Shown here: positions 36,524-63,573 of the stretch, piece by piece | How positions within the stretch are numbered: the first letter of the stretch is position 1 | How the letters are laid out: each line of letters begins with the position of its first letter | Source: a virus | DNA length: 64,000 nt | Direction: 5' to 3' (one strand) | Virus record (IMG/VR): IMGVR_UViG_3300023208_000003 | Coordinates: 62,001-126,000 of that record | Notes under the pieces: generated by a model | Told to the model about the DNA's origin: nothing | The model's database searches: none | The model's input: the letters and a program-made list of their open reading frames with translations, nothing else | Translations under genes and position numbers: made by a program

Positions 36524-37045
36524 ATGAACCTCCTGCAAGAAATAGACCTCATCGCTGAGGAAACCAAAACCGAGAAAGACTTGGTAAAGATGTTCAAGGA
36601 CGCCAAAGACAGCGGCGCACTTAAGAACTATGTCCTTTCTGAAACCTATGACGTTCGTCCACTCAAGATAGACGAAGAAGTCAAAGTAAAATTCCCAGGA
36701 TTTACCTCTAAAACCGAAAAAGCGCAGGAAGGCGAGAGCTTGTTGCGTGTTCACGATAAACCAAATCTTCAACGCATTATTGATGAGGAAGAACTTGAAG
36801 ATAGTTACGCTCCTATTCGTCCAAATGAAAAACCAGATGCAGAAGGATTTACGCTTTATCGTAGCGTTAAAACACTTCAAGCTTTTCAATATACTGAGGA
36901 CCAACCTCTGGTCTTCCAGGGTAACGTAGGAGGCTCATTGCATGTTAAAATGAATGACTATATCGCTCGTGACGTAGCTAATCCCAAGAGAGTCCTAGTG
37001 TTTCCTGGTCCAAAGTTTGAAGACAAATATACTGAAACCAAATGA
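36524..37045 (+). CDS. PGDYG-like domain protein
   Basis: This is a 173-residue protein. The C-terminal ~65 residues (FTLYRSVKTLQAFQYTEDQP, then LHVKMNDYIARD and RVLVFPGPKFEDKY) follow the pattern of the small PGDYG domain found in many phage proteins: YRK-x-V-x-x-x-AFQ..., a GDY-like turn, then F-x-x-x-Y. The N-terminus MNLLQEIDLIAEET is hydrophobic and acidic with an LIAEE stretch that could serve as a prohead-protease site. It lacks the AKL C-terminus. The stop overlaps the next gene as ATGA. Function is unknown; it may be packaged like its neighbours. Confidence 0.55.
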   Translation: MNLLQEIDLIAEETKTEKDLVKMFKDAKDSGALKNYVLSETYDVRPLKIDEEVKVKFPGFTSKTEKAQEGESLLRVHDKPNLQRIIDEEELEDSYAPIRPNEKPDAEGFTLYRSVKTLQAFQYTEDQPLVFQGNVGGSLHVKMNDYIARDVANPKRVLVFPGPKFEDKYTETK

Positions 37046-37692
37046 AAGTTCAAAAGCTAATTTCTGAGAGCCCTGGTTCTGGTTCTTTTACTATTATGTG
37101 CACTAAGCAAGTAAAAAGTAATGTTCAAATTGATATGTTTGAGCAAAATTTTAAATATCTTGCGTCACAAAATTTTAAAGATGAAACTGTTAGATTGGAT
37201 AGTTCCTCTGGTAGAATTAATGTCGGAATACAATTTAACAATTCTTCACGAACAATTTTTCCTAAAAAAGTAGCAGAAATAATTTTAAAATTTGTAACAA
37301 ATTATACTGGAAGTTCCGTGTTTCCACCAGTAAAAATGCATGTAAATTATCCAACGTTGATTTTGTTAGATTTTAGTGATCAAGATGATCGAATTGTTGA
37401 TCAAACAGTCGACAATGAACATTTAATGATTAATGGATTTACGCTCAAAGACATTCATAAACACATTAAAAATATTGATTCGATTTATTGTAATGATAAA
37501 ATCACAGATAGCGTTTTAGGTCTATTATTAATTGAACACAGTCTTCGTTGTTTTGAAGAAGTTGTAGGCGTTCCATCTTTAAATGAAGACTGGATGGAAA
37601 TAGTTAATAAACACTTAAGTGGCGATAAAGATGTTCTTGAATGTAAAACAGATTTAATTGAAAAAGGATTTCCAAAGTTGGCAAAAATATGA
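37042..37692 (+). CDS. AKL-family protein
   Basis: This 216-residue protein is the first of seven array members arranged head to tail. The N-terminus MKVQKLISESPG is the short targeting-like type with ISE|S as a possible cleavage point. The middle is beta-rich and variable, then VNYPTLILLDFSD, a TLKDIHKHIKNID block followed by DSVLGLLLIEH. The end is DVLECKTDLIEKG...AKI. Start and stop both use ATGA overlaps with neighbours, which indicates translational coupling. Function is unknown. Confidence 0.82.
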   Translation: MKVQKLISESPGSGSFTIMCTKQVKSNVQIDMFEQNFKYLASQNFKDETVRLDSSSGRINVGIQFNNSSRTIFPKKVAEIILKFVTNYTGSSVFPPVKMHVNYPTLILLDFSDQDDRIVDQTVDNEHLMINGFTLKDIHKHIKNIDSIYCNDKITDSVLGLLLIEHSLRCFEEVVGVPSLNEDWMEIVNKHLSGDKDVLECKTDLIEKGFPKLAKI

Positions 37693-38359
37693 AAGTCAAG
37701 CAACTTCTTCAAGAAGCTCAGCGTGGAATGTTTTACTTTACATTCAACTCAGCTCAGCTCAAACAACGTATGAAAATTCTCTCCTTCTGAAAGATGATTT
37801 ACAGGTTGCAGCAGAAAAGCTCGGTGCTGAAGTAGAGTTCATTGGACGTACTGAAGATGATGACGATGAAGGCAGACTCACGAGTAATTATGGGTTCAAG
37901 ATTTATCATCACTCAGGTGATCTTCACCCGAAACAACTTGGTATTGTTCTCAATAATCTTTATGTAAAATACACAAATGGAGATGTTGATGTAAGTAACA
38001 CAATGGTAACTCCAACAATGGGACTTCACTTGCCAGTCAATTTTCTTGTTGACTTTTCAGATGGCACAGCTACATTTGTAAATCAATTTATAAATCAATA
38101 TTTCGTAAATATTGCAGGAACCGATTTACATAATATTCACAAGCAAATTCAGCACATTGACGCAATATTTATAGATGATGATGTGAAATCGGGTGGGCTT
38201 GGACTTATGCTAGTTGAAGATTTAGTAAATGTTTCTGGGATAAAGCAAACACTTCAGTGGCGAAACATTATAACCAAGCATCTCAAAAATGAGCGCGATG
38301 TGCTTGATTGCAAAGCAGAGTTAATTGAGAAAGGGTATTCAACGCTCGCAAAACTATAA
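37689..38359 (+). pseudogene. AKL-family member with an apparent 1-nt frameshift
   Basis: The expected start at 37689 overlaps the previous stop as ATGA and gives MKVKQLLQEAQ, a good targeting-like sequence. That frame ends at TGA 37788-37790. The rest of the protein, from about NSLLLKDDLQVAAEK onward, lies in the -1 frame and runs to 38359 with the family blocks: HNIHKQIQHIDAIF, GGLGLMLVEDL and DVLDCKAELIEKG...AKL. One extra A in the AAAA run at 37773-37776 would restore a single frame. So either one base is missing (sequencing error or real mutation), or the start is recoded. No canonical -1 slippery heptamer is evident. Confidence 0.75.
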
Positions 38360-38371
38360 AAGAGAATTCAT

Positions 38372-38917
38372 ATGATAGAAGAAGAAAAAAAGAAAAGAAA
38401 GAATAGTAAAGCAAAAGGAAATGGCTTTGAAAGTAAAGTTGCAAAAATTTTAGCAGAGCACCTAGCGCCTTTAAAATTTATTCGTACCCAAAGTTCTGGA
38501 GCTCGTGTAGGTGGAAAAAACTTTGGAACAACTGGACAGCTTTTTAATCAACAGACACTTTCGCTTTTCGTGGGTGATGTGGTTGCCACAAATGATGGCG
38601 AAGACGGTCACTGGTTTAGGTTTGTAGTTGAATGCAAATTTTATAAGGAACCTGATACATTAGATCAGCTGCTTACTCGTAAAGCAAAGGTATTTGGCTG
38701 GCTGAATGAAGTTGATGTTGATAAAGTAAAGGTTGGTAAAGAAGGAATTGTCATAATGAAGTTTAATGGAAAAGATCCATTGATAGCCGTTAGACCTGAA
38801 ATTGAGCTACCTTTTAAGAATTACTTAACAATTGGGAATGCAAAGATTGGTTATCTTGCAGACGCACTAGAACACCCGGAATTCTGGTTAAAAAATGAAA
38901 ATACAACAGCTACTTGA
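38372..38917 (+). CDS. PD-(D/E)XK nuclease-like protein
   Basis: This 181-residue protein has the core layout of the PD-(D/E)XK fold. A helix carries GNGFESKVAKILAEHL with Glu20, then RTQSSGARVGG, then FVGDVVA with Asp69, and finally RFVVECKF with Glu87-x-Lys89. A following helix with LLTRKAKVFGWLNE and an HPEFWLKNE tail complete it. Members cleave DNA as resolvases, restriction enzymes or repair nucleases; the exact role is unknown. The N-terminus is strongly basic/acidic (EEEKKKRKNSKAKG). It sits between two frameshifted AKL-family genes and overlaps the second by 23 bases. Confidence 0.65.
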   Translation: MIEEEKKKRKNSKAKGNGFESKVAKILAEHLAPLKFIRTQSSGARVGGKNFGTTGQLFNQQTLSLFVGDVVATNDGEDGHWFRFVVECKFYKEPDTLDQLLTRKAKVFGWLNEVDVDKVKVGKEGIVIMKFNGKDPLIAVRPEIELPFKNYLTIGNAKIGYLADALEHPEFWLKNENTTAT

Positions 38918-39567
38918 AAATCAAGAAGTTAAATCTCACTTTACAATGCATGAGATTTATCCTGAAATGTCAAAAATAAAAAGTGAGTTTGTAAATATGC
39001 CACAAGGTAAAATTTCAAAATTAATTGAAAAGAAACTCAAACTATTAAAGACGAAATATGGATTTGACGCTATTCCGACAGCTTTTTTTTAAAACTCATT
39101 CTAATGACTTTTTTTTTGGAGAGTATGGAATTACGTTTACTTTCAGTGACAGAACAGCAACAATTGATCTTACAAAACTTAGAAATGAAACCAATTTAAC
39201 TTTAGGACTATCTTCTAGAAAAAATAATTACACTACGCTCGAATTTAATTGTCCACTAAGTTTAACATTCAAAACTGATAAATCATTTAGTGAAGCATTA
39301 TGCGAATTCGCAGCAAACGGAAAAACTCTGCAGAATATTCATAAAATTATTCCTGACGTTTATAGTTTACGTGTAGTTGATACAATTGAAAGCAACGTGT
39401 TAGGGCTTGTTTTAATGAAAAAATTAGAAGCTGGGTTTATTGATTTTGGAGCATCAAATAAAGATTGGTCATTAATAGTCTGTCGTTATCTTCACAGCAA
39501 TCGTGACCTGCTTGAATGCAAAACTGAGTTAATTGAAAAAGGATTTGGAGCTTACGCAAAGCTATGA
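38895..39567 (+). pseudogene. AKL-family member with a frameshift in a poly-T run
   Basis: The frame opened at 38895 (MKIQQLLENQE, targeting-like) ends at TAA 39090-39092, immediately after a run of eight T at 39083-39090. The continuation lies in the +1 frame: KTHSNDFFFGEYGITFTF, then FNCPLSLTFKTD, TLQNIHKIIPDVYSLR, SNVLGLVLMKK and DLLECKTELIEKG...AKL, ending at 39567. Removing one T gives a seamless ...IPTAFFKTHSND... reading. A second run of nine T follows at 39109-39117. Sequencing error, a true mutation or slippage at the T run are all possible. Confidence 0.75.
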
Positions 39568-40325
39568 AAATAAATCAATTATTTGAAGAAGTTAATCACT
39601 ACGCCACCATTCGCTTTCGTCTGAGTCCCTTTGTGGTTGATGATGAAACTGGCGAGCTTTTACCGATTAAGCGCTGGCAAAAAGACGGGGTTGACGCCTT
39701 TAACGTCGACAGTGATGCTTGGAAAGAAACACTGCAGTTGGTTAAAAACGCTAATGTTGATGGTTTAAAAATGTTCAGAATGTCTGCCCAATCAAGAAAT
39801 AATAGTGATCTTGGGTATGATTTTATTTTTTACGTGACAAAAGCAATCAACGTTGATCAAGCGCTTTTAGAGCTTCACAGTAAGATCGCTTATTACGATT
39901 CTCATTCGGAACCTAAGAAAGGGAGTGCGATGTATGTGAACTCCATCGTCTTTATTTCTCCTATTCCAGCTGGTCTTACCTTTGATGAGGAAAAAACTCG
40001 AGACTTGCAGAAGTGGAACTGGGACGGTATTGCGCTTGGCGGAAGAAGTGCTTCTGCTGCGCAAAATGAGCTTTCACTTGCAAATATCAAACACATCAAG
40101 TGCTTCAATTTATTTTTGTTCGGTAAGGTAGTAAGTAACGCGTTAGGCATTTTGCTAAATCCTACAATACGAACGCTAACTTCAGCATCAGGATTTAAAT
40201 CGCCTAATCAAGTATGGAATCCTTGGATCCCAATAGTCACTAAGCATTTAGATGGCGATAAAGACATTCTTGAGTGTAAAACAGATTTGATAGAAGCTGG
40301 TTACAAGGAACTCGCGAAAATCTAA
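39564..40325 (+). CDS. AKL-family protein, long member
   Basis: At 253 residues this is the longest member of the left array. The N-terminus MKINQLFEEVN matches the short targeting-like form also used at 22486. The body has a longer and more hydrophilic insert (residues about 30-150) and a modified central block, IKHIKCFNLFLFGKVVSNAL followed by GILLNPT, in which HK is retained but shifted. The end DILECKTDLIEAG...LAKI is typical. Its codon use in the first half is less AT-rich than its neighbours, which may indicate recombination. The start overlaps the previous stop as ATGA. Confidence 0.8.
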   Translation: MKINQLFEEVNHYATIRFRLSPFVVDDETGELLPIKRWQKDGVDAFNVDSDAWKETLQLVKNANVDGLKMFRMSAQSRNNSDLGYDFIFYVTKAINVDQALLELHSKIAYYDSHSEPKKGSAMYVNSIVFISPIPAGLTFDEEKTRDLQKWNWDGIALGGRSASAAQNELSLANIKHIKCFNLFLFGKVVSNALGILLNPTIRTLTSASGFKSPNQVWNPWIPIVTKHLDGDKDILECKTDLIEAGYKELAKI

Positions 40326-40326
40326 A

Positions 40327-40356
40327 TTGTACTTTTTCTTACTTTGATGTTATAAT
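40327..40356 (+). promoter_or_regulatory. Early/middle-type promoter
   Basis: TTGTAC at 40327-40332 and TATAAT at 40351-40356 are separated by 18 bases. A 22-base stretch then leads to the ATG at 40379, with an AGGGTGA ribosome site. It is nearly the same sequence as the promoter at 42360, including the T-rich spacer after TTGTAC and the TGTTATAAT end. Confidence 0.7.
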
Positions 40357-40378
40357 TTGCATTAAAATAGGGTGATTT

Positions 40379-41038
40379 ATGTCTGCTGAAGCTCCATTAC
40401 TTGGTTACGGTGCGCGCTACGCCGTAATGATAAAAAATCCGTATGAAAAAAACCCGGAACAGTTTTTATCCAAAATCTTCAAGCAGCTTGAAGTAAACGT
40501 TACTGCTGCACTTCAAGATTATCCTATCTATTCAATCAGTTTCAATGTTGAAACTGCCGGCAAATTCGTTTCATTAATAATTTTCTTTGACGATGCAGCT
40601 TTTACTATTGATATTGAAAAGCTGCACGCAACTATTTTAGATAACCTCAAAGCTTTAAATTTAAAAGTAGCAAATTCTGATAAATACTACGGAATGACGA
40701 ACTTGTATTTGCCTACAAGCATTTCAATATTTGTTTCAGATAAGATCTTTGAAACTGATAATGGAATAGTGCTGGTTTCTGGCAGGTCCCTTAGTGGAGT
40801 TCATAAACAGCTGATAAATGTCAATTGTATTATCTTACAAGACACAATCAAATCAAACATTTTAGGATTGCTTTTGATTGATAATTTAGTAGAACTTAAC
40901 TTTACAAGTAAAGAAGTTCGAGAAAGCAATCGTACTTGGACAGAGCCTTACAAGCTGGCTAGATTGGAAAAAATGGATTTGCTCGAGTTTAAAGCGATGC
41001 TCATTGAAAATGGATTATCACAATACGCGAAACTATGA
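40379..41038 (+). CDS. AKL-family protein without targeting-like N-terminus
   Basis: This 219-residue protein begins MSAEAPLLGYGARYAVMIKN, which has no MKxFKxFLxE motif; an in-frame TGA at 40373-40375 excludes an upstream start. The rest is canonical: NLYLPTSISIFVSD, SLSGVHKQLINVNC, SNILGLLLIDN and MDLLEFKAMLIENG...YAKL. It has its own promoter at 40327-40356. A second member with its own promoter (42395) also lacks the motif. These may be made early and act in the cell rather than being packaged; this is inference. Confidence 0.8.
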   Translation: MSAEAPLLGYGARYAVMIKNPYEKNPEQFLSKIFKQLEVNVTAALQDYPIYSISFNVETAGKFVSLIIFFDDAAFTIDIEKLHATILDNLKALNLKVANSDKYYGMTNLYLPTSISIFVSDKIFETDNGIVLVSGRSLSGVHKQLINVNCIILQDTIKSNILGLLLIDNLVELNFTSKEVRESNRTWTEPYKLARLEKMDLLEFKAMLIENGLSQYAKL

Positions 41039-41697
41039 AAGTACAAACATTATTAAAAGAAAACACTAATTTTGAAGGGTTTAAATACAGCTTCAGAGTG
41101 TCTGAAGAATGGCCTAGTCAGCCCCAAGATAAAGAAAAAAATATCAGTAACAGTGTTAATAGCGTAATTAAAGAACTTTATTCATTGTCGTTTTCAATAA
41201 AAGAAATTCTTTTTAATTTTGATGGAACCGAGAGAAAATTCAAAATTGAGTTTAAAGATGTTTCAGAAGTTGTTAACTTAGGTCATTTTCACGATGAAAT
41301 CAAAAAAATACTTAAGAACAATAATTTAATATTTACCATGAGTGATGAATATATTGCTAATATGACAATGATGTTTCCAGGCAAAATCGGTGTTCGTATT
41401 AGCGCATTTCAGAGAAATAACGGGTGGGCTACAGTCGTCGTATACGGTAATTCATTAAAAGATGTTCATAAAAGAATTCTTAATGCTGAAGAGCTCGTTA
41501 TTCAAAATGAAATTAACTCAAGTGTCTTAGGACTTATCTTAATGTCTGGAACGTCTATACGTTTTAGATCAAATCAAATCATTGAAGATAATCCTTGGCT
41601 TGATTTATATGTTGAAGCAATGGAGCAAAAAATGGACGTGCTTGAGTTCAAAGCGATGCTCATTGAAAATGGAATGTCACATCTGGCAAAATTATGA
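41035..41697 (+). CDS. AKL-family protein
   Basis: This 220-residue member begins MKVQTLLKENTN, a targeting-like sequence with LLKE|N. The family blocks follow in order: MMFPGKIGVRISAF, SLKDVHKRILNAEE, SSVLGLILMSG and MDVLEFKAMLIENG...LAKL. Its C-terminal LEFKAMLIENG matches the preceding gene exactly, so these two are recent tandem duplicates that have diverged in the middle. ATGA overlaps join it to both neighbours. Confidence 0.83.
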   Translation: MKVQTLLKENTNFEGFKYSFRVSEEWPSQPQDKEKNISNSVNSVIKELYSLSFSIKEILFNFDGTERKFKIEFKDVSEVVNLGHFHDEIKKILKNNNLIFTMSDEYIANMTMMFPGKIGVRISAFQRNNGWATVVVYGNSLKDVHKRILNAEELVIQNEINSSVLGLILMSGTSIRFRSNQIIEDNPWLDLYVEAMEQKMDVLEFKAMLIENGMSHLAKL

Positions 41698-42359
41698 AAG
41701 TTCAAACATTACTAGAAAGTGAAGAAAGTTTACTAACCACTCCAGGCTACGCGTATGTCACATACATCTGTTCTAGTGAGTACCCAAAGGGGCTAAAAGA
41801 AATTATTGAAGAGCTCAAACATAAGATACCTTGTACAAAATTTGTAGAAAATAAAGATAGCTACATTAATGCAGAAGAAGGTGTTGAAACGTGTAAGCTT
41901 ATCTTTCACTTTGCTTCAGGTAATGTTAGTATCAAACAACTACAAACTGACATTCGAAAGATTGTTTTCAATAAATTTGATTGGAATTTCATTAGAGGGT
42001 TTGGTAGAATTGGACTTTCTTATATTAATTTTCCAACTAGTGTAGTTGTAAATTCCGATTACATTGAAATTGATGACAATGAAAACATTGATTATGCAAC
42101 TTCTTCAACTACTCTCAAAAATATTCACAAGTCAATAAAAGGAGAAATCACGTTTCTAGAACTTCATAGAGAGATTGAAGACTCAGTTTTAGGCTTATGT
42201 CTTTTAGAACACCGTGACTTTAAAATTATGTCATCAAGTTCAAAAGTAGCCGGCACAAACGTATCTTGGGTTAAGCTTTACAGAGAACATAAAGATGATC
42301 TTCTAGAGTTTAAAACTGCTCTCATTGAAGCTGGACTTCCACATCTCGCAAAAATTTAA
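41694..42359 (+). CDS. AKL-family protein
   Basis: This is a 221-residue protein. MKVQTLLESEES is almost the same as the N-terminus of the preceding member. The middle contains INFPTSVVVNSD, TLKNIHKSIKGEI and DSVLGLCLLEH, and the end is DDLLEFKTALIEAG...LAKI. It is the last gene read from the promoter at 40327; its stop is followed at once by the next promoter of the same class. Function is unknown. Confidence 0.83.
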   Translation: MKVQTLLESEESLLTTPGYAYVTYICSSEYPKGLKEIIEELKHKIPCTKFVENKDSYINAEEGVETCKLIFHFASGNVSIKQLQTDIRKIVFNKFDWNFIRGFGRIGLSYINFPTSVVVNSDYIEIDDNENIDYATSSTTLKNIHKSIKGEITFLELHREIEDSVLGLCLLEHRDFKIMSSSSKVAGTNVSWVKLYREHKDDLLEFKTALIEAGLPHLAKI

Positions 42360-42388
42360 TTGTACCTTTTTTACGCTTATGTTATAAT
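42360..42388 (+). promoter_or_regulatory. Early/middle-type promoter giving a probable leaderless mRNA
   Basis: TTGTAC at 42360-42365 and TATAAT at 42383-42388 are separated by 17 bases. The ATG of the next gene is at 42395, six bases after the -10 box, where transcription would be expected to start. No Shine-Dalgarno-like sequence is present, which supports a leaderless transcript. Confidence 0.65.
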
Positions 42389-42394
42389 AGTAAT

Positions 42395-42985
42395 ATGAGC
42401 GTAAAACTTAAGTTAACATTTTCAGCAAATGTAGATTTTTACCCATCATATACGGTAAAAATCGCGGCGGCGCTTCTTAAAGAGTTTAATGTTTCGCCTG
42501 ATCTTTGGATTTATGGTAACGCAAATTTAAATCTTGACGTTACATTCACCGATGTGCAAACTGTTAACATCAGTGAGCTAATTCATAATTATAAAAGATG
42601 TATTTTAAAAGCATTAAATCCACCAGCATCATCTTATTTAGTCTTAACCGTGATCGCGCGTAGTATCGAACTTCATGTTCCTAGCGTTACAAAAATCATA
42701 ATGGATGATAAACTTTCTGCTGGGCACAATCTTTTAAAGCTGTTTGGCACTGACTTTCATAACCTTCAAAAGGTTGCCGATCTCAACTCAACGATAGTCG
42801 TTGACATCAAGGATCACGTTAAGGCTAACGTTCTATCAATGTGTCTTCTTTCAAATTGCATGTTTAAAGTTGAAAATATTGAAAATTTAAAATGGCTTAA
42901 TTTATTTTATGATACTGATAGAGATTTATTAGCATTTAAAGCTGCTTTAATTGAGAATGGATTTTCACAATTGGCAAAAATATGA
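42395..42985 (+). CDS. AKL-family protein without targeting-like N-terminus, possibly leaderless
   Basis: This 196-residue member begins MSVKLKLTFSANVDFYP with no targeting motif. The central blocks are degenerate: LHVPSVTKIIMDD, DFHNLQKVADLNST (Gln replaces His) and ANVLSMCLLSN. The end, DRDLLAFKAALIENG...LAKI, is clear. It lies directly behind its own promoter with only six bases between the -10 box and the ATG. It is the most divergent member of the array. Confidence 0.78.
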   Translation: MSVKLKLTFSANVDFYPSYTVKIAAALLKEFNVSPDLWIYGNANLNLDVTFTDVQTVNISELIHNYKRCILKALNPPASSYLVLTVIARSIELHVPSVTKIIMDDKLSAGHNLLKLFGTDFHNLQKVADLNSTIVVDIKDHVKANVLSMCLLSNCMFKVENIENLKWLNLFYDTDRDLLAFKAALIENGFSQLAKI

Positions 42986-43048
42986 ATATTGCTAAAGATA
43001 GTATTTTTAAACTATAGAATTTGTTCCAAAGCAATACGCTAAATTTTA

Positions 43049-43078
43049 GTGTACTTCTTCTGATTTCCTTGTTATAAT
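43049..43078 (+). promoter_or_regulatory. Early/middle-type promoter
   Basis: GTGTAC at 43049-43054 and TATAAT at 43073-43078 are separated by 18 bases and end in TTGTTATAAT, as at 40327 and 42360. It reads into two small genes and, with no terminator seen between, into the large non-coding region that follows. Confidence 0.65.
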
Positions 43079-44706: not shown

Positions 44707-45375
44707 ATGAAAACATTCAAGCGCTTTCTAACAGAAGCACCCAAAATTTATAATTCAGATCGTCATTATCCAAACGAGGATTCTGAAGATCTAATCATAA
44801 AAGGTAATATTGAAGATAGTCCTGTTATTGATTTTAGTGACTGGGTAGAGTACGATGAGCAGTATAGTCCAGGCTGTATTGTAGAAGGAAATGTTACTGT
44901 CAGTAAAATTGATTCATTTAAAACTTGTGTTGGCGCTCCAAGTAAAATTAAAAAAACTTTAACAATTCAATATTGCAAAAATTTTATTTCATTAAAAGGG
45001 TTACCTGAAAAGATCGGCGGAAATCTTTATGGATTAAACATTCGTGGTTGTACTGCGTTGACAACTTTAGAGTATTGTCCAAAACAACTTGGCGCTTATT
45101 TTAACCTTGACGGTTGTACGAGTTTAATTAGCTTGAAGTATATGCCGAAGAAAATGGATGGAGATCTGTTTTTAACGGATTGCAAAAATTTAAAAAACAT
45201 TCTTCACGTTTTTCTAACCATTGGTATTGATGAAATTCATTACGATGCTAATCAATCTAATCTAGAACAAGCGCTTTATATTATTTGTGATCATTACTTT
45301 AAAAAAGATAGGGATTTACTTGAGTGCAAAGCTGAATTGATAGAAAGAGGATTATCAGAATATGCAAAGCTTTAA
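44707..45375 (+). CDS. AKL-family protein, LRR-like member with targeting-like N-terminus
   Basis: This 222-residue protein begins MKTFKRFLTEAPK, which is almost the T4 internal-protein targeting sequence, with FLTE|A as the protease site. The middle consists of leucine-rich-type units that alternate a short strand with a turn: SFKTCVGAPSKIKKTLTIQY, SLKGLPEKIGGNLYGLNIRG, TLEYCPKQLGAYFNLDG and SLKYMPKKMDGDLFLTD. The end is DLLECKAELIERGLSEYAKL. The 14 bases at 45362-45375 also encode the start of the next gene. The N-terminus and repeats together suggest a packaged recognition or binding protein. Confidence 0.85.
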   Translation: MKTFKRFLTEAPKIYNSDRHYPNEDSEDLIIKGNIEDSPVIDFSDWVEYDEQYSPGCIVEGNVTVSKIDSFKTCVGAPSKIKKTLTIQYCKNFISLKGLPEKIGGNLYGLNIRGCTALTTLEYCPKQLGAYFNLDGCTSLISLKYMPKKMDGDLFLTDCKNLKNILHVFLTIGIDEIHYDANQSNLEQALYIICDHYFKKDRDLLECKAELIERGLSEYAKL

Positions 45376-46000
45376 ATCATATCTTCAGGAAGAAGATCCT
45401 CCAAGAATTTTCTTTGATCCTAATTATACTTTTTACGATAAGAATGACATTCATTCAATGCGTGATTTAATTCACATACAGCCTGATTATGTTACAGGGT
45501 GCATCATCAAAAATGATTTTGATATCAGCGGTTTGAAAAATATTAAGAGTTGGGATGACGGTCCATCGTATATAGCAGGAACGTTATATGCTGCAGACAC
45601 TGGTTTTACTACGCTAAAAGGAATGCCAAAATATATTGGTTCTGATATTAATCTTCGTATGTGTATGGGATTAACTACTCTTGAAGGGTGTGTTCAAGAG
45701 TGTAATGGGTATTTTGCTATTTCAAATTGTGTTAATCTAGTTTCATTAAAGTGGATGCCTAAGAAAATAACAGGAATTTTATTAATACGATTCTGTCATT
45801 CGCTAAGAGGTATTCTTTCTATTTTACTCTGTGATGGAATAATTGCAATCAAAGATGAAATTACAACAAATCAAAATAACGCGCAGCTACGTGAAGCCAT
45901 GCGAATTGTAAAAGATCATTATTTTAATCAAGATAGAGATATTCTTGAATGTAAAGCAGAACTAATTGAAAATGGATTAGGTGAGTATGCAAAGCTTTAA
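45362..46000 (+). CDS. AKL-family protein, LRR-like member
   Basis: This is a 212-residue protein. MQSFKSYLQEED is encoded by the same bases as the AKL stop of the previous gene (ATGCAAAGCTTTAA). LRR-like units follow: TLKGMPKYIGSDINLRM, TLEGCVQECNGYFAISN and SLKWMPKKITGILLIRF. A helical region then leads to DILECKAELIENGLGEYAKL. It is closest to the flanking two members, a three-gene tandem expansion. Confidence 0.85.
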   Translation: MQSFKSYLQEEDPPRIFFDPNYTFYDKNDIHSMRDLIHIQPDYVTGCIIKNDFDISGLKNIKSWDDGPSYIAGTLYAADTGFTTLKGMPKYIGSDINLRMCMGLTTLEGCVQECNGYFAISNCVNLVSLKWMPKKITGILLIRFCHSLRGILSILLCDGIIAIKDEITTNQNNAQLREAMRIVKDHYFNQDRDILECKAELIENGLGEYAKL

Positions 46001-46619
46001 ATCATTCCTAAATGAAGAAACTCATACAATTCGCTTTGATATTGGCGTTCCTGAATCTGTTGAAGATTTAGCTGAACTTACTGAGGTTTATAATAAAGGA
46101 CCTCAAATATACGTTCCTGGCTGTAAAATTGAAGGTGCATTTTTTGCTACTAATTCTAAAATTAAAAATTTTAAAAATGGTCCATCATACGTTCGTAAGG
46201 AAATTATGGCTGATAGATGTCGAGAGCTTGAATCTCTTGAAGGTATGTGCGATTCAGGTAGCTATGTTTCGCTTGAACGTTGTGATAAGCTTACAACGCT
46301 CGAACATATTCCAAACGTAATTCAAGGCTGGTTGAATATTAATTTTTGCTCAAGCTTAGAAACTCTCAAGCATTTTCCAAAAGCGATTATGGGTGCACTT
46401 TACATTCGTGAGTGCAACGAGATTAGAAATGTGATGCGGCTTTTGATGTGTCATCAAATTTTTAGATTCGATTTTGAAAAAGACTTTCCAGAAAATCCTC
46501 AACTGTCCGAAGCTCTTACAATTATAGCAAAAAATTATAAAAAGTCAGGCGATGCTGATATTCTTGAATGTAAAGCAGAACTAATTGAAAATGGACTAAG
46601 TGATTACGCGAAACTATAA
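45987..46619 (+). CDS. AKL-family protein, LRR-like member
   Basis: The start is set at 45987 (MQSFKSFLNEET), inside the 14-bp overlap with the previous gene; a GTG six bases earlier is less likely, because the overlap form recurs at other junctions. The 210-residue protein has LRR-like units SLEGMCDSGSYVSLERC, TLEHIPNVIQGWLNINF and TLKHFPKAIMGALYIRE, and ends DILECKAELIENGLSDYAKL. A terminator hairpin begins at its stop codon, closing the unit. Confidence 0.85.
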   Translation: MQSFKSFLNEETHTIRFDIGVPESVEDLAELTEVYNKGPQIYVPGCKIEGAFFATNSKIKNFKNGPSYVRKEIMADRCRELESLEGMCDSGSYVSLERCDKLTTLEHIPNVIQGWLNINFCSSLETLKHFPKAIMGALYIRECNEIRNVMRLLMCHQIFRFDFEKDFPENPQLSEALTIIAKNYKKSGDADILECKAELIENGLSDYAKL

Positions 46620-50933: not shown

Positions 50934-52582
50934 TGGCAACTTGGGTAAATTATTGGCGAATTATTACGCCAGCTTCTAAAAAGCAGCAATACACGCATTT
51001 AGCGACAGATACTCTATCAAACACAAATCCAAACGCTGTAGCGTCAATTTCATGGTACTCGCAGATCATGAAAGGCGCTGGAACTCGTTTACAACGTTAT
51101 ATCCAATACGAAGGCATGGATGGCGACGTTGACGTATCACGCGCTCTTGATATTATTGCCGAAGAAATTTCAAATGATGACGAACGTACAGGTTTGCCAT
51201 TTTTAATTGAGTATCAAAATGAAGAAGATGAGGAAGTATCAGAAACTATTGTTTCAACGCTAAGAGCGGCTGTTCGACATTGGGCAAGAATACAAGATTT
51301 AAACAATAGAATTTTTAGAACTGCCCGCACGATGGTTAAGTACGGAGATTGCTTCTTTAGAAAAACTACTGACTTTAAGAAATGGGATTTTGTTGACCCA
51401 TCAAAAGTTTTAGGCATTGAAATTAACGAAAAAAATGAGCGAGTTGCGTATCACTTAAAAAAGGGTGAGGGCACTGTAACAGTAGGCGGGCGCAACGATA
51501 ACGTTGAAATTGTTCCAGCTGACGCAATAATTCACTTCTCACTTTCGGATGAAATGGAAGATATGGCTCCATTTGGTGAGTCTGTTCTTCAACCAATTTT
51601 TAGAACATTCAAACAGCTTTCAATGCTTGAAGACTCAACAATCATTTATCAGATTGTTCGCGCGCCTGAACGTCGAGTATTCTACATTGACGTTGGTAAC
51701 ATGCCACAGCAGCGCGTGGCAACTTATTTAGAATCTATTAAGAATCAAATTCGTCAAAAACGTCAACCAAATACAACCGCTGGAAAGGAAAATGTTGACG
51801 GTGTATACAATCCAAACTCCATTCAAGAGGATTTCTTTTTTCCTGTAACGACATCTGGACGTGGTTCGCGCGTTGAAACTCTTCCTGGCGGCGAAAATCA
51901 AGGGCAAAATGAAAATCTTCTTTATTTTCAAAAGAAGATGTTTAGAGGCCTTCGTATTCCAACTTCATATATGGTTGGCCAGGATGGTCAACAAGCTCAA
52001 TATAACGATGGTAAGGTTGGTATTGCTTATATTGAAGAACTTCGTTTTGCAAACTTTATTAAACGTCTTCAAAATAAGCTTGAAAGCGTTTATGATTATC
52101 AGTTCAAAATATATCTGAATGCCGCAAACATTATTGTAAATGAGGAGCTCTTTCTTTTAAAACTTCCTGATCCACAAAATTTTGCTCTTTATAGACAAGC
52201 CGCACTTGACACTGATCTTATAAATGCGTTCAAGTCTGTTGAAGATGTTGAGTATCTTTCACGTAGATTTATTTTAGCTCGTTACCTTGGTTTAACTGAG
52301 GATGAAATTCAAATGAATGAAGCAATGCTTAAGCAAGAACGCGCTATTCGTGAGGATGTTAATCTTTCTGATCTACAGCAAATATATGACAAAAAGGTTT
52401 ATGAAAATCGTCCAGAACAAAAAGTTGAAGAGCCAGAAGCTGAAGGTGGTGAAGAAATGGGTGGCGGGGAACCTGGTGGTGAAGAAATGGGTGGAATGGG
52501 TGGCGCGCCTGAAGAAATGGGTGGCGGAGGAGCAGAATTACCACCAGGAGGACCTGGTGGTGAAGAAAATTTAACAATTTAG
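50933..52582 (+). CDS. gp20: Portal protein gp20
   Basis: This is a 549-residue protein. Segments DVSRALDIIAEEISNDDERT, ARTMVKYGDCFFRK, PFGESVLQPIFRTFKQLSML, EDSTIIYQIVRAPERRVFYI, DVGNMPQQRVATYLE and KMFRGLRIPTSYMVGQDG follow the T4 gp20 portal pattern in order. The dodecameric portal is the DNA gate and the neck attachment site. The last ~55 residues are unusual: a low-complexity tail of Gly, Glu, Met and Pro with repeats of GGEEMGG and PEEMGGGG. The usual portal, protease, core, scaffold, capsid order follows. Confidence 0.95.
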   Translation: MATWVNYWRIITPASKKQQYTHLATDTLSNTNPNAVASISWYSQIMKGAGTRLQRYIQYEGMDGDVDVSRALDIIAEEISNDDERTGLPFLIEYQNEEDEEVSETIVSTLRAAVRHWARIQDLNNRIFRTARTMVKYGDCFFRKTTDFKKWDFVDPSKVLGIEINEKNERVAYHLKKGEGTVTVGGRNDNVEIVPADAIIHFSLSDEMEDMAPFGESVLQPIFRTFKQLSMLEDSTIIYQIVRAPERRVFYIDVGNMPQQRVATYLESIKNQIRQKRQPNTTAGKENVDGVYNPNSIQEDFFFPVTTSGRGSRVETLPGGENQGQNENLLYFQKKMFRGLRIPTSYMVGQDGQQAQYNDGKVGIAYIEELRFANFIKRLQNKLESVYDYQFKIYLNAANIIVNEELFLLKLPDPQNFALYRQAALDTDLINAFKSVEDVEYLSRRFILARYLGLTEDEIQMNEAMLKQERAIREDVNLSDLQQIYDKKVYENRPEQKVEEPEAEGGEEMGGGEPGGEEMGGMGGAPEEMGGGGAELPPGGPGGEENLTI

Positions 52583-52650: not shown

Positions 52651-53262
52651 ATGGCAAAAGAAATTTTGATTGAAAACATTTCGCCAATTCAGGCAAATTT
52701 AGTTGAATCAATTGATACTGAAAAAAATTATTTTTTGACAGGTATTTCAATGCAGGCCAATATTCGTAATGGCAATAATCGCATTTATCCACTTGAAGAA
52801 ATCTCACGTGAAGTTCAACGAGTACAAGAAAATTTAAAAAAAGGAAGCTATGTGCTTGGAGAACTTAATCATCCAGATACCTTAGCAATCAATCCATACA
52901 ATGCGTCTCACGCAATTATGGAAATTAACATGGATGGTGAAAATGCTGTTAGTAAGATGAAACTTCTTGATACCCCTGCTGGTAATATTGCACGTGCAAT
53001 TTTAGAAGGCGGTGTTCGCTTAGGTGTTTCATCTCGTGGTGCCGGTAATGTTGGAAATGATGGAAGCGTTTCTGATTTTCAACTTGTAACAATTGACATT
53101 GTTCATCAACCATCAGCACCTAACGCATATCCAAATTTTGTTCGTGAAGCTCAAGAGAACACAAAGATTGTAACTCTTGCTGAGTCTGTTGTTCACGATA
53201 AAGCTGCTCAAAAATATTTAGCAGCGGAGATGAAAAAATTTATCAAAAGCATTTTGAATTAA
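52651..53262 (+). CDS. gp21: Prohead core scaffold protease gp21
   Basis: This is a 203-residue serine protease of the herpesvirus-assemblin-like (S80/U9) fold. His74 is in GELNHPD and the nucleophile is Ser127 or Ser128 in LGVSSRGAG, the two signature motifs of T4 gp21. A third motif, VTIDIVHQPSAPNA, follows. gp21 cuts scaffold, capsid and internal proteins at (L/I)xE sites during maturation; matching sites are seen in the capsid protein here (LTE|T) and in the targeting-like N-termini of the AKL family. Possible self-cleavage sites lie near the C-terminus. Confidence 0.95.
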   Translation: MAKEILIENISPIQANLVESIDTEKNYFLTGISMQANIRNGNNRIYPLEEISREVQRVQENLKKGSYVLGELNHPDTLAINPYNASHAIMEINMDGENAVSKMKLLDTPAGNIARAILEGGVRLGVSSRGAGNVGNDGSVSDFQLVTIDIVHQPSAPNAYPNFVREAQENTKIVTLAESVVHDKAAQKYLAAEMKKFIKSILN

Positions 53263-53595: not shown

Positions 53596-54495
53596 ATGGA
53601 TGAAATCCTTAATAAATTATTGGAATCCGAGTTGCTAAGCGACGAAACGAAGACTGAAGTTTCAACTCTCTGGAACTCTGCCGTATCAAAGAAAATGGCA
53701 GAAATTAAAGAAGAAGTTGAATTGGAAGTTCGCGCAGAACTCGCCGAGCAATGGACAAAAGACCGTGAAGCCTTCATTACGAAGGTTGATACATTTGTAA
53801 CCGAGCAGCTTACTACTGAACTTGCAGACTTACGTGGCGATATTGAGCGCTTCCGTGATCTAGAGGTTGAGTACAGCGAGCGTCTCGTAGAAGAAAAGAA
53901 GAAAATTGCAGAAGAAGTTGCAAAAGAAATGGATACTCTTGTTGACAAGATTGATGCATTCTTTGAGCTTCGTATTGCAGAAGAGATGGCTGAATTCAAG
54001 GAAGACCTTGAAATCGTTAAGCAGAACGAGTTTGGTCGTAAAGTATTTGAGGCATTTGCTTCAGAGTACGCGAACTCCCACGTTGATGAAGAAAGCAACT
54101 CTACTAAGCTTTCAATTGCTGAAAGCAAAGTTGCTGATCTTACCAAGCGCCTAGCGGCACTTGAAACTGAAAAGAACAAAATGATTCGTGAATCTAAAAT
54201 GGCTGAAGTTCTTAAGCCACTTTCTGGCGAAAAACGTGAGTCAATGGCATTCATCCTCCAAAACGTTGAGACCAACAAACTTGAAGAAGCTTACAAGCAC
54301 TTCATTGGTCGCATCTTAAAGGAAGAAAAGCCTGCTTCTGAAAAGAAGGAAGAGGTTCTTAAAGAGTCAACCACTAAAGTTGTAACTGGCGAAGAGAAGA
54401 ATGCAGAAATCATCAAAGAAGAAAAATCTGCAGCAGCTCCAGCCTCCAGCAGCAATCTTGATAGTATCAGACGCTTAGCTGGTATCAAGAAATAA
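53596..54495 (+). CDS. gp22: Prohead core scaffolding protein gp22
   Basis: This 299-residue protein is highly charged, rich in Glu and Lys and almost entirely helical (EIKEEVELEVRAELAEQW, YSERLVEEKKKIAEEVAKEM), typical of the T4 gp22 core scaffold. It ends with a flexible Lys/Glu/Ala/Ser region (EEKSAAAPASSSNLD) and RRLAGIKK. It lies directly before the capsid gene. (L/I)xE-type sites occur, consistent with proteolysis during maturation. Its codon use is GC-richer than other genes, as for the capsid, which suggests strong expression. Confidence 0.9.
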   Translation: MDEILNKLLESELLSDETKTEVSTLWNSAVSKKMAEIKEEVELEVRAELAEQWTKDREAFITKVDTFVTEQLTTELADLRGDIERFRDLEVEYSERLVEEKKKIAEEVAKEMDTLVDKIDAFFELRIAEEMAEFKEDLEIVKQNEFGRKVFEAFASEYANSHVDEESNSTKLSIAESKVADLTKRLAALETEKNKMIRESKMAEVLKPLSGEKRESMAFILQNVETNKLEEAYKHFIGRILKEEKPASEKKEEVLKESTTKVVTGEEKNAEIIKEEKSAAAPASSSNLDSIRRLAGIKK

Positions 54496-54520: not shown

Positions 54521-55747
54521 ATGGAACTATTTGAAAATTGGCAAGAAACTAAAGAAGTATTGCTTGAAGGCGTACCTGAGCACAAGAAGAGCTATGTTGC
54601 TTCTGTAATGGAAACTCAGAAAAAGTACCTTACTGAAACTGCTGCCGCTACTGCCAGCAACTCAACCGCTATCAGCAATTTCCAGAAGATCGTCATTCCG
54701 ATGATCCGCCGTATTATCCCAGCAACTATTGCTACTGAACTCGTTGGTATTCAGCCAATGCCTGGTCCAGTATCTTTGGTTTATTCATTACGTTTCCTCT
54801 TTTCTGAGAACGTAACAACCGTACCAGCACAGACACCATCTGAAGACATCGTTGGTCTTTCTACTGAAGTTTTCTCAAACAACAGTAAGACAAAACGTTG
54901 GTATTCTACTTCTAATGTCTCTGCACCGAGCGGTGGCCCAGCAGCTGCTACTTCAGCAGGTGAAGCTGCTCTTACCTCTGATTACGAAAGTTTCGGCGGT
55001 CGTGCAATGCAGCTCGAAGTTCTTAAGCAGACTGTAACTGCTGGTTCACGTAAGTTACAAGCTAAGTGGACTATCGAAGCTATGCAGGATCTTTCTGCGC
55101 AGCACGGTCTTGATCTTGAAGCTGAAATTACTGCAGCTCTTTCTGCAGAAATCGTATCTGAAATTGATAACGAAATCATCAACAACCTTATCCAGCTTGC
55201 TGGTACTTCCGACAGCTTTGATATGTCTGGTACTTTTACTGGCGTACCTAACTACGTTGGTGATCGTCACGCAGTTCTTGGTGTATTGATTAACAAGGTT
55301 GCTAATGAGATTGGACGTAAGACACGTCGTGGTCCTGCTAACTGGATCGTTGTTTCCCCACTTGTTGTTTCTATCCTCCAGTCAGCTGCTAAGTCTGTCT
55401 TTGCTCCTGCTGTTTCTGGTTCTTTTGAAGGTCCAAACAACACCAAGTTGGTTGGTACTTTGAATGGAAATATCAAGGTTTACACCTACTTGTACCATGA
55501 CACTGGCGTTGAGCCAATTCTTCTTGGTTACAAGGGTGGTAATGGTGAGTTGGATGCAGGTTATTTTTACTGCCCATACATCCCATTGATGGCTTCTCAG
55601 GTTATTACTGATCCATCTACCTACAACCCACAAATCAGCTTAATGACCCGTTACGGAAAAGCAACTTTCCTTAACAGCACAACAAGCCTTGGGAACTCAG
55701 CCGACTACTACGGAAAAATCACTGTTTCGAATTTGACTTTCCTCTAA
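54521..55747 (+). CDS. gp23: Major capsid protein gp23
   Basis: This 408-residue protein matches the T4 gp23 layout. An N-terminal propeptide ends in KKYLTE|T, so cleavage is expected after Glu39. IPMIRRIIPATIATELVGIQPM and VYSLRFLF follow, then a RKLQAKWTIEAMQDLSAQHG E-helix region and the VSPLVVSILQSAA and CPYIPLM segments. It is shorter than T4 gp23 (521; mature about 456), so a surface insertion domain is probably reduced or absent. Codon use is distinctly biased and GC-richer. A strong terminator follows 33 bases after the stop. Confidence 0.95.
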   Translation: MELFENWQETKEVLLEGVPEHKKSYVASVMETQKKYLTETAAATASNSTAISNFQKIVIPMIRRIIPATIATELVGIQPMPGPVSLVYSLRFLFSENVTTVPAQTPSEDIVGLSTEVFSNNSKTKRWYSTSNVSAPSGGPAAATSAGEAALTSDYESFGGRAMQLEVLKQTVTAGSRKLQAKWTIEAMQDLSAQHGLDLEAEITAALSAEIVSEIDNEIINNLIQLAGTSDSFDMSGTFTGVPNYVGDRHAVLGVLINKVANEIGRKTRRGPANWIVVSPLVVSILQSAAKSVFAPAVSGSFEGPNNTKLVGTLNGNIKVYTYLYHDTGVEPILLGYKGGNGELDAGYFYCPYIPLMASQVITDPSTYNPQISLMTRYGKATFLNSTTSLGNSADYYGKITVSNLTFL

Positions 55748-57115: not shown

Positions 57116-57116
57116 T

Positions 57117-58238: not shown

Positions 58239-58275
58239 TCTTATCCTCAAAAAGAAACAGATTTTATATTGTTTC

Positions 58276-58283
58276 TATTTATC
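58276..58283 (-). promoter_or_regulatory. Late promoter core, divergent pair (left)
   Basis: The minus strand reads GATAAATA about 38 bases upstream of the ATG at 58238. With the plus core at 58292-58299 it forms a perfect 9-bp inverted repeat (CTATTTATC and GATAAATAG, 8-base spacer) that fires outward in both directions. Confidence 0.7.
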
Positions 58284-58291
58284 TCAGGATT

Positions 58292-58299
58292 GATAAATA
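58292..58299 (+). promoter_or_regulatory. Late promoter core, divergent pair (right)
   Basis: GATAAATA on the plus strand, about 33 bases upstream of the gp13 start at 58332. It is the right half of the palindrome described for 58276-58283 and drives the neck operon. Confidence 0.7.
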
Positions 58300-58331
58300 G
58301 TTGAACATAACCACATAATTTGGAAAGTTCA

Positions 58332-59864: not shown

Positions 59865-59866
59865 TT

Positions 59867-61639
59867 ATGGCAGAACCTACATCTTACGTTCCATCACAAC
59901 TTTGCATTGGACAGTGGCGTCTTCAAGACAATGCTGGTTGTAACAACGATTCTTCAACTCTTGAACAATACGTAGCTGAATCAATTGAGATAGCTGGTGC
60001 TCCAATGAATGTCTTTAAATTGCTAGGCGTTCACGAGCAAGGTCGTCTAATGGATTTAACTGGTTTTGGAACACCACTTTCGAGCGGCTCTTTAGCTGGT
60101 TCTGACGTAACAAACGCGTTTGATATTTCAGCTGATAGCTGGAAATCCGCGCAAGTAGGGTCTGCTGTAGTTGCAACTCCTGCTTGGATTGGTTACTTTT
60201 TTGGAACAAAAAAGACTAGCTTTGGAATGGATAAGTATAAACCTTCCAGCCCAATTCTTCAGCATATAACAACACTTAAAATTCAACAAGGCCCGAATAT
60301 TCAAAATCGCGCTTTACAAGTGCGTGTTGATCGTTCGGATGGAAAGCTTGATGCGAGACTCGTCTCACAATTTATTACGAGCGCAGCTGTTTTATCTAAC
60401 ATAAGGGCCGCGCAAACTGCAAAGTGGGGAACTGTTTACGTTACTGCAACAAGTTCTACTCAAATTTCTGTTTCTGGCCCTTCTGGAATCGAAACAGGGA
60501 CGATCGGTTCTTTTAAAGGCACTGACGTTCTATTTGACCTTCAAGGTCCAATGAATACCGGTGATATTTTTAGAATTGAACTAGACGTGAGGTGGAAACG
60601 TGCAGACATTATCAACCTTCCTAATACTAGCAATCTTGAACAAATTGCCATCAGACAGACCGCCCCATCCTCGTACTGGCGCATCGTCCCACTTATCTTT
60701 AATGGTGGAGCGACCGATTCGTGGGAAATTGTCAAGCTCGAACTCATTGATTTTCAATCGACCTCAATTGACAATATTGAAGATACCTTATTTCTCGAGA
60801 ATCGAGACAGAGATTATTCAAATACGTCAATTGAACTCAAGGCCCAATATCAACCAGTAGATTCAATTGGAGATTTAGGTAAATTTGGTTTTAATTTATT
60901 AGATCAATATGCTTTTAGTGTTTCATTTAGTCGAATGGTTGAGCTTCTTGGTAGGCCTATTGTTGTCGGTGACGTTATTGAAGTTACACCTGAGCTTGCC
61001 TATGATCAAAATTTAAAACCGATCAAGAAATTTTTAGAGGTAATCGACGCCTCATGGGCAGCTGAAGGATTTACCCCCGGCTGGAAGCCATTGATCTATA
61101 GATTTACAGCAGTCCCGCTTTTGCCATCGCAAGAACATCGTGATCTATTTGGAACGCCTGATGAGCAGCTTTACAAAGTTGACGATGGAACCTTTTTTAA
61201 CAACATTGGTCAACATCAAAACGCTCAACTAACTGTTGCTGAAGACGCGGCAACAGTTGCGCTTGACCAGGTTCCAGAGATAGGAGCTGACCCACAGGAA
61301 ATTGCTAGTGGTGCTCCACTCCTTAATAACGTAAACAAACTTGGTGAAAGAACTGACCAGCAAGATATGTATGTTCAGGACGCTATTCCACCTGATGGTT
61401 TACCTTACAAAGAGGGGTATACGTTTCCTGACGCAAATACCGCGTTGGACGGAGATTATTTCCGGCAAATTTATCCGCCTGACACCAGAATACCCGCTAG
61501 ACTGTACAAATTTAATGCAATCAAGCACCGCTGGATCTACCAGGAGACTGATATGCGTGATAGCTATAGTAGCCATAAGCCATCCATCCGCAGTGCCCTG
61601 GTGTCATTAGGGTCTAAGAGTTTAAAGAGTGACCTATGA
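59867..61639 (+). CDS. gp14: Neck protein, gp14-like, with inserted module B
   Basis: This 590-residue protein lies immediately behind gp13. A segment (FSVSFSRMVELLGRPIVVGD, then VIEVTPELAYDQNL and KKFLEVIDASWAAEG) resembles the core of T4 gp14. T4 gp14 is only 256 residues; the rest here includes an N-terminal region with MNVFKLLGVHEQGRLMDLTG and, at residues about 186-242, a module B copy (KWGTVYVTATSSTQISVSG, then TGDIFRIELD) shared with the giant baseplate proteins and gp6. The C-terminus is Pro/Asp rich (IYPPDTRIPARLYKFNAIKH). The gp14 assignment rests on position and partial resemblance. Confidence 0.65.
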   Translation: MAEPTSYVPSQLCIGQWRLQDNAGCNNDSSTLEQYVAESIEIAGAPMNVFKLLGVHEQGRLMDLTGFGTPLSSGSLAGSDVTNAFDISADSWKSAQVGSAVVATPAWIGYFFGTKKTSFGMDKYKPSSPILQHITTLKIQQGPNIQNRALQVRVDRSDGKLDARLVSQFITSAAVLSNIRAAQTAKWGTVYVTATSSTQISVSGPSGIETGTIGSFKGTDVLFDLQGPMNTGDIFRIELDVRWKRADIINLPNTSNLEQIAIRQTAPSSYWRIVPLIFNGGATDSWEIVKLELIDFQSTSIDNIEDTLFLENRDRDYSNTSIELKAQYQPVDSIGDLGKFGFNLLDQYAFSVSFSRMVELLGRPIVVGDVIEVTPELAYDQNLKPIKKFLEVIDASWAAEGFTPGWKPLIYRFTAVPLLPSQEHRDLFGTPDEQLYKVDDGTFFNNIGQHQNAQLTVAEDAATVALDQVPEIGADPQEIASGAPLLNNVNKLGERTDQQDMYVQDAIPPDGLPYKEGYTFPDANTALDGDYFRQIYPPDTRIPARLYKFNAIKHRWIYQETDMRDSYSSHKPSIRSALVSLGSKSLKSDL

Positions 61640-62361
61640 GATTTAAACAATTTTTAACAGAAGCCAAAATTCCAGAATTTGTAATACCTGCATTCTTTTG
61701 GTTTTCAGATGATTTTGCTAATTCAGTTTCAATGACGTTAAATTCAGCCATAGAAATATGGATGTCTGAAGACTCAATACAGAAGTTAATGATGCTAGTC
61801 AGAGGAGGCGTAACGCTAAAATGTACAAATTATGAACGTCAAACTAAAGCAGCTGTTAAAAATGGTTGGACGCTATTTGAAGAAGAGCACAATTTTGATA
61901 GTTATGAAGGAATACTTTATAAGAAGAGTCAAGAAATTCAATATCCTAAACTTTACTATTATCAATCTCAAAATTTATCAAAAATTCCAGCTGGTATGAA
62001 TATGGACGCAACTATAGTTGCAAATTTGGCGTTTAATAATTTATCTGACTTTGAAAACTTGCCGCATAATACTGCGCATTGTTTCTTAAATTCTAACAAA
62101 TATACATCACTCTCAGGAATACATAAGCAACTTAAGGATTGTTATCAACTTGATATTGAAAAGAACCCGATTAAAGAATCTGTTTTAGGATTGCTCTTAA
62201 TTAAAGGACTTTATGATTTTTCATTTGAAGGAGTTCCAGCAAAAGCTTATGACGCAATTTACTTAATTATGAAACATCATAGACATGAAGAAGCTGGAGA
62301 TGTTCTCGAAGCAAAAGCAGAACTAATAGAAAAAGGATTTAGCCAGTATGCGAAGCTTTAA
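61636..62361 (+). CDS. AKL-family protein
   Basis: This 241-residue protein is coupled to gp14 by ATGA. The N-terminus MRFKQFLTEAKI is a strong targeting-like sequence with FLTE|A. The body has a WFSDDFANSVSMTLNSAIEI region unlike other members, then an LRR-like bit (ANLAFNNLSDFENLPHNT), SLSGIHKQLKDCYQ and ESVLGLLLIKG. The end is DVLEAKAELIEKGFSQYAKL (Cys of LECK replaced by Ala). It combines features of the LRR-like and IHK-type members. The last 14 bases encode the next protein's MRSFK. Confidence 0.83.
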   Translation: MRFKQFLTEAKIPEFVIPAFFWFSDDFANSVSMTLNSAIEIWMSEDSIQKLMMLVRGGVTLKCTNYERQTKAAVKNGWTLFEEEHNFDSYEGILYKKSQEIQYPKLYYYQSQNLSKIPAGMNMDATIVANLAFNNLSDFENLPHNTAHCFLNSNKYTSLSGIHKQLKDCYQLDIEKNPIKESVLGLLLIKGLYDFSFEGVPAKAYDAIYLIMKHHRHEEAGDVLEAKAELIEKGFSQYAKL

Positions 62362-62920
62362 GCAATTTATACGTGAAAATATCGACGGCGTAAAAAATGG
62401 AATCTGGTGTACCTCACCACCAGAAAATCCTCTTGAGTATAATGCTACAGATTTAAGAACAATTTTAGATTTCAATAATTATGAAGAAGACCATCTTTAT
62501 AATGATGTTGAATTTGCGTTCTACAAAAAGCTAAATACTCTTGAAGGCTGTCCTGAAAAAGTTATTAATTATTTTTATCTAAACTTTTTACCTGAACTTA
62601 AAACGCTTGAGTATGCTCCTAAATTTGTCGGAAATTCAGCTTATCTTTCATCATTAGATCTTTCAACGTTGTCTGGCATTGGTAAGCGCTTTTTCAATGA
62701 AATTAAAGTTATGCTTTCATTTGATAATTGCACAATTGATTCATCTATTTTAGGGCTCTTATTGATTAAGGGGCTTTCATCCTGTGTTTCAGTTTTTAAT
62801 GGCGGTAAAGATTTAGAACGTGCGATAATCGTAATCAACAACCACTTACCTGATCGTGATATTTTAGAAGCAAAAACAGAACTTATCGAACTTGGATATT
62901 CACGATACGCAAAGCTATGA
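62348..62920 (+). CDS. AKL-family protein
   Basis: This is a 190-residue protein. The start MRSFKQFIREN lies within the 14-bp overlap ATGCGAAGCTTTAA at 62348-62361. LRR-like units (TLEGCPEKVINYFYLNF, TLEYAPKFVGNSAYLSS) lead into TLSGIGKRFFNEIK and SSILGLLLIKG, so this member links the two middle types. The end is DILEAKTELIELGYSRYAKL. ATGA joins it to the next gene. Confidence 0.83.
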   Translation: MRSFKQFIRENIDGVKNGIWCTSPPENPLEYNATDLRTILDFNNYEEDHLYNDVEFAFYKKLNTLEGCPEKVINYFYLNFLPELKTLEYAPKFVGNSAYLSSLDLSTLSGIGKRFFNEIKVMLSFDNCTIDSSILGLLLIKGLSSCVSVFNGGKDLERAIIVINNHLPDRDILEAKTELIELGYSRYAKL

Positions 62921-63573
62921 AACTATTAGAAATTACATCTCCTACATACAAACACTCAGATGTTGAATTAGCTTTTTACACAGCCGATGTTAAACGCTTG
63001 TATCAACTTGTGGATGCTGTTACAAAAGAAAAAATAATTAAAGAGATGCTTGATGTTAAAAAATACGGGGTTTATTTTTTAGGCGAAGATTATCATAATG
63101 AAGCATGCTCGATCTTTTACTCATTTGGGTGTGAGGATCCAATATCTTCAGCCGGGGTTAAAGAAATTTATCGCAGTGTTGAAAAAATATTTGAATCTTA
63201 CGGAATTAACACAGAAGAATTATTGGCCGGTCTCAATTTTTATAAAATGCCTGATAAAGTTTGGGTTAAAAGTGATCATTCTTCTCCAAATTTTTATCTT
63301 TCAGCAAATGAAGAATTTACCAGCTTATGTGGAATTTCCAAAAAGATTAAATATGAAGTTGTTGATGATATTGACATTGAGCACGTAGAACGCATCACAG
63401 AAGGTGGTCTAGGATTTTTATTAATTGATAATCTTAGAACAATTTATACTCTTCCTGCAAAAAAAATATTATGGCTGAGCATTATAAATGAGCATCTTAA
63501 AGGAGAACGAGATATTCTTGAATGTAAAACCGCTCTTATTGAACAAGGACAAGGAGCTTTTGCTAAAATATGA
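62917..63573 (+). CDS. AKL-family protein
   Basis: This is a 218-residue member. Its N-terminus MKLLEITSPTY is a poor match to the targeting sequence (LLE|I at best). The central part NFYKMPDKVWVKSDHSSPNF, then SLCGISKKIKYEVV and GGLGFLLIDNL, is close to the member at 421-1098 (KMPNNVW, SLCGIHKKIK, GGLGFLLIDDL), which is far away on the other strand. The end is DILECKTALIEQG...FAKI. It overlaps gp15 by ATGA. Confidence 0.8.
   Translation: MKLLEITSPTYKHSDVELAFYTADVKRLYQLVDAVTKEKIIKEMLDVKKYGVYFLGEDYHNEACSIFYSFGCEDPISSAGVKEIYRSVEKIFESYGINTEELLAGLNFYKMPDKVWVKSDHSSPNFYLSANEEFTSLCGISKKIKYEVVDDIDIEHVERITEGGLGFLLIDNLRTIYTLPAKKILWLSIINEHLKGERDILECKTALIEQGQGAFAKI

Follow-up and report, generated by a model that had tools for sequence, protein, structure and literature searches.

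Why would a single phage devote about 12% of its DNA to the genes of one protein family? The question is raised by a 64,000-nucleotide stretch of viral DNA, bases 62001-126000 of the 197,099-base IMG/VR record IMGVR_UViG_3300023208_000003 (here G000), which we call the window and in which an earlier note had recognized 17 paralogous genes with a common C-terminus. From their sequences we consider it reasonably probable that these genes encode packaged, probably injected effectors of the kind represented by the internal proteins (Ips) of phage T4, and that they form a new family. Its members would be host-acting proteins built of a cleavable N-terminal leader, a variable middle and a shared C-terminal module. 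The leader would serve as a capsid targeting sequence (CTS) that brings each protein into the prohead, where the protease gp21 would cut after a hydrophobic-x-E site; the cut protein would then ride in the head and enter the cell with the DNA. There each variable middle could bind a target of its own among host or defence proteins, much as T4 Ip1-3 act against GmrSD.

The existence of the family is beyond doubt. A search of G000 with a profile of the C-terminal module, which spans about 90 residues and ends in D(I/L/V)LECK(A/T)ELIExG..YAK(L/I) (the AKL motif), returned 34 members with E values from 1e-33 to 1e-5, the next open reading frame (ORF) following at E 0.09, and chance is excluded as the source of the family in this record. 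All members lie between 57.6 and 148.4 kb, in a region with structural genes, and combine a strongly diverged middle with the C-terminal module; most of them also have a leader. Seventeen of them touch the window. The genes listed in the earlier note thus all exist, 16 with a complete C-terminus and one cut by the window edge, and its count is right for the window and too low for the whole record; its term hypervariable is apt for the comparison between paralogues. Several ORF starts had been called too long, and an internal methionine yields the leader. In window coordinates, the family genes and the associated features are as follows.

3-449, minus strand: family member cut by the window edge (whole gene at G000 61652-62449), leader MQNFKHFLKE
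421-1098, minus strand: family member, leader MKNFKQFLIE
22073-22486, minus strand: short family member adjoining a baseplate-wedge gene, leader MKINQLFEN
37042-37692, plus strand: family member, leader MKVQKLISE
37658-38359, plus strand: frame-disrupted family member, leader MKVKQLLQEA from 37689 in a different frame
38895-39092, plus strand: leader-bearing ORF (MKIQQLLENQ...) that runs up to a T8 tract and overlaps, in a different frame, with the following member
39058-39567, plus strand: family member, the C-terminal part of a frame-disrupted gene
39564-40325, plus strand: family member, leader MKINQLFEE
40327-40356, plus strand: putative promoter TTGTAC-N18-TATAAT
40379-41038, plus strand: family member without leader
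41035-41697, plus strand: family member, modelled as a ferredoxin-like domain plus the C-terminal element, leader MKVQTLLKE
41694-42359, plus strand: family member, leader MKVQTLLES
42360-42388, plus strand: putative promoter TTGTAC-N17-TATAAT
42395-42985, plus strand: family member without leader
44707-45375, plus strand: member of leucine-rich repeat (LRR) type, modelled, leader MKTFKRFLTE|A
45362-46000, plus strand: LRR-type member, leader MQSFKSYLQE
45987-46619, plus strand: LRR-type member, leader MQSFKSFLNE
61636-62361, plus strand: family member, leader MRFKQFLTE
62348-62920, plus strand: family member, leader MRSFKQFIRE
62917-63573, plus strand: family member, short leader MKLLEITSP

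Two boundaries had to be corrected. The family region had been said to start at 36524, where the ORF 36524-37045 is not a member, and the stretch 37042-42985, described as an array of members, also holds a RusA-like resolvase gene at 38372-38917. The non-member ORF 36524-37045 starts MNLLQEIDLIAEE and has a weak match to a virion structural PHROG.

A degenerate pattern of the C-terminus, followed by profile search and ORF collection, led to further IMG/VR contigs with the family: 40 members in the 360 kb record G003, which encodes gp21 and gp23, 16, 9 and 11 in records G004-G006, which overlap and are fragments of one phage type, and one or two in each of four small or distant records. One scan of 84,980 species genomes of bacteria and archaea confirmed no relative, and a search of 50,697 phage records with one C-terminal sequence gave no match. 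Among named records, the profile found no member in T4, XacN1, PA5oct, CBB, RAS14, Phosso, Lak-C1 and two huge phages, and gave only E values above 0.02 in SCTP-2; XacN1, PA5oct, CBB, RAS14, Phosso and SCTP-2 are the phages closest to this one in gp23 or portal sequence. Searches with the C-terminal module identified no family in Pfam, PHROGs or the PDB, which yielded only scattered weak matches; one PHROG match (E 8e-9) concerned a single family member. PADLOC returned no family, and no description was found in the open-access literature.

The leader is one of the features that suggest packaging. It is present in 30 of the 34 members of G000, in the form M..FK.FL.E or MK(L/V/I)..L(L/I).E. Across nine records, among which G004-G006 overlap and some rows repeat, 99 of 117 members carry it versus 39 of 862 other ORFs, and hydrophobic-x-E with the glutamate at residues 7-12 occurs in 88 of 117 versus 128 of 862. 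The N-termini of IpI, IpII and IpIII, read from the T4 record (starts MKTFKEF and MKTYQEFIAEA), have the common pattern M..[FY][KQ].F; this pattern, taken from T4 alone, fits 10 of the 34 members and none of the 189 other genes of G000 (p 2e-9). In G003, the strict form fits none of the 40 members and a relaxed form 13 of 40 versus 3 of 461 others. The first residues have low confidence in both AlphaFold2 models described below. Proteins outside the family can begin in a similar way: phrog_36119 proteins do so in both phages (L009:17732-18466; L067:17147-17902), the one of G003 having a weak nucleotidyltransferase match, and two proteins of SCTP-2 (L116) have the short-leader-like starts MKIKQLFES and MKVNDILKED.

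Head genes, including the candidate for the leader-cutting enzyme, are encoded in the window.

50933-52582, plus strand: portal, T4 gp20 type (phrog_213, E 8e-92)
52651-53262, plus strand: head maturation protease, T4 gp21 type, candidate leader-cutting enzyme (phrog_207, E 5e-54)
53596-54495, plus strand: scaffold candidate (phrog_237, E 1e-5)
54521-55747, plus strand: major capsid protein, gp23 type (phrog_138, E 3e-92)

Since G000 also encodes a gp55-like sigma factor and genes of the SbcCD/gp46-47 type, the phage is placed in the T4 superfamily. The nearest sequences of its gp23, 42-50% identical, come from jumbo phages such as CM1, RAS14, XacN1, SCTP-2 and GAP32. A relative, PA5oct, has a record that marks the virion proteins detected by mass spectrometry (MS). 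A short-leader pattern fixed beforehand from the family fits 5 of 93 detected PA5oct proteins versus 2 of 352 others (p 0.005) and, relaxed post hoc, 10 detected versus 3 others (p 2e-5), while the long pattern fits one of each. The proposal of a capsid-targeting N-terminus thus gains sequence support from the head genes, the T4 pattern and the hydrophobic-x-E sites, and the PA5oct evidence for it is mixed.

The T4 proteins offer the closest parallel. T4 IpI-III bear a CTS, are cut by gp21 and injected, and inhibit GmrSD; Ip1-3 each block one type of this nuclease, and at least ten Ips have been reported across T4-related phages (PMC12373910). The likeness lies in small, diverse proteins, a T4-type head protease, and a short leader at the N-terminus that follows one pattern and includes hydrophobic-x-E. 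The differences are the copy number, three in T4 and 34-40 in two records here, and the shared C-terminal module, which is absent from T4. The T4 Ips are, by analogy, a model for the function of the family and not evidence for it. Giant phages such as SPN3US also package many ejection proteins in the head, several of which are cut by the prohead protease, as proposed here, although the propeptides of SPN3US are mostly much longer than the T4 leaders (PMC5694885) and SPN3US does not figure in the list of gp23 relatives for the G000 phage.

Two members were modelled with AlphaFold2 from alignments of 25 and 31 members (mean pLDDT 83.6 and 89.5). Member 41035-41697 is predicted to have a ferredoxin-like N-terminal domain and member 44707-45375 an LRR solenoid, in keeping with the earlier remark that some middles are LRR-like. 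Both models close with a strand followed by two helices, and these C-terminal elements appear similar, as judged from secondary structure. The earlier note had taken the C-terminus for a packaging handle; it is more likely a fold cap, because it ends two different domains in the models and is kept in leaderless members. In fold searches, the ferredoxin-like model had one match below E 0.001, with a TM score of about 0.25, which we read as a generic fold match. The LRR model matched four viral proteins (BFVD A0A8D4GLZ7, A0A8D4GM51, A0A8D4GM21 and A0A8D4GP65; best TM 0.64). Lak phages and Vibrio phage TDDLMA have LRR proteins with similar repeats, but the TDDLMA protein has neither the leader nor the C-terminal module, and Lak-C1 gives no hit with the C-terminal profile.

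Four of the 34 members in G000 have no leader. Two of them are frame-disrupted; at one of these sites the leader ORF 38895-39092 meets the member 39058-39567 at the T8 tract. A second T tract of this member (window 39083-39117) is nine bases long in the window, and near-identical IMG/VR contigs (L055/L017) have 11 T there, a difference that may reflect decay, phase variation or assembly error. Among the 34 family genes of G000, only the two intact leaderless ones (40379-41038 and 42395-42985) carry an exact TTGTAC-N16-18-TATAAT, a sequence that occurs at eight sites in G000 versus 0-1 in shuffles. Exact sites lie 3-80 bases before five genes, namely these two members and those at G000 171781 (288 amino acids, without a named function), 178610 (an RlaP-like nucleotidyltransferase) and 182363, and a site with one mismatch precedes the T4-type RNA ligase gene at 14089. 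We infer that the sequence represents an early or middle promoter class. Because the two intact members have no leader and this promoter class also stands before an RNA-repair gene, they are probably made early in the cell instead of being packaged.

Several results weigh against packaged and injected effectors with an early-made branch. Nothing in the T4 genome matches the C-terminal profile, and no homology to IpI-III is seen beyond the leader; such homology is not required for the class, however, because T-even internal proteins are diverse effectors with only the CTS in common (PMC3012670). A position-specific matrix of the leader, built from other members of the family, gives no enrichment in PA5oct (p 0.29 and 0.97), though it also scores the T4 Ips low; the PA5oct support depends on the pattern used and is therefore moderate at best. 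CBB has almost no leader-like starts, with the T4 IpI-III pattern in 0 of its 576 ORFs, and hence does not replicate the comparison. The T4 late-promoter octamer TATAAATA stands at the start of no family gene in G000, where it is rarer than in shuffles (20 versus 41) and has 16 sites within 150 bases before a gene, the scaffold candidate included. The association of promoter and missing leader concerns two genes, with a chance of 1/561 for exactly these and about 0.01 when all four leader-negative ORFs are counted. In G003, 8 or 9 of the 40 members have no leader and none has a matching promoter, so the association is seen in one phage only.

The leaderless G003 members, 8 of the 40, remain in the array, as they might if the proteins were intracellular effectors that are never packaged and the leader served to direct them to membranes or replication sites or to control translation. 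This is unlikely given that the leader matches the start of the T4 internal proteins, that most members have hydrophobic-x-E, and that leader-like starts, by the pattern fixed in advance, are enriched among the MS-detected proteins of PA5oct. Packaging without injection, in which duplicated, leader-tagged internal head or core components would serve assembly or DNA packing, would be enough to explain the leader, gp21 and the structural-gene neighbourhood. A structural role would not, however, call for dozens of strongly diverged paralogues or LRR-type middles, two members without leader have the kind of promoter seen before the RNA-repair gene, and the median isoelectric point of the family (5.7) does not point to general DNA binding, all of which makes this explanation distinctly unlikely. 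The LRR solenoid model and the position of members near tail genes could also suggest variable surface or host-recognition proteins of the tail- or head-fibre type, with LRRs for binding. We set this very improbable reading aside, as the proteins are small and arrayed, their leaders are of the head-targeting type, and non-LRR members have the same C-terminal module.

Packaged, probably injected effectors thus remain the explanation that we favour. We further put forward, as a possibility rather than an expectation, that the family is a modular arsenal of more than 30 host-targeted proteins, built on a common frame and with two routes of delivery, some packaged and injected with a leader and others transcribed early, these having a promoter instead of the leader. 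If true, the phage would have a set of injected proteins far larger than that of T4, built on one recognizable frame, and each gene of the array would be a candidate inhibitor of host defence. The leader and the C-terminal module would together provide a sequence handle by which uncultured phages could be searched for such proteins, and the family would offer a natural comparison of injected and early-made delivery for the same type of protein.
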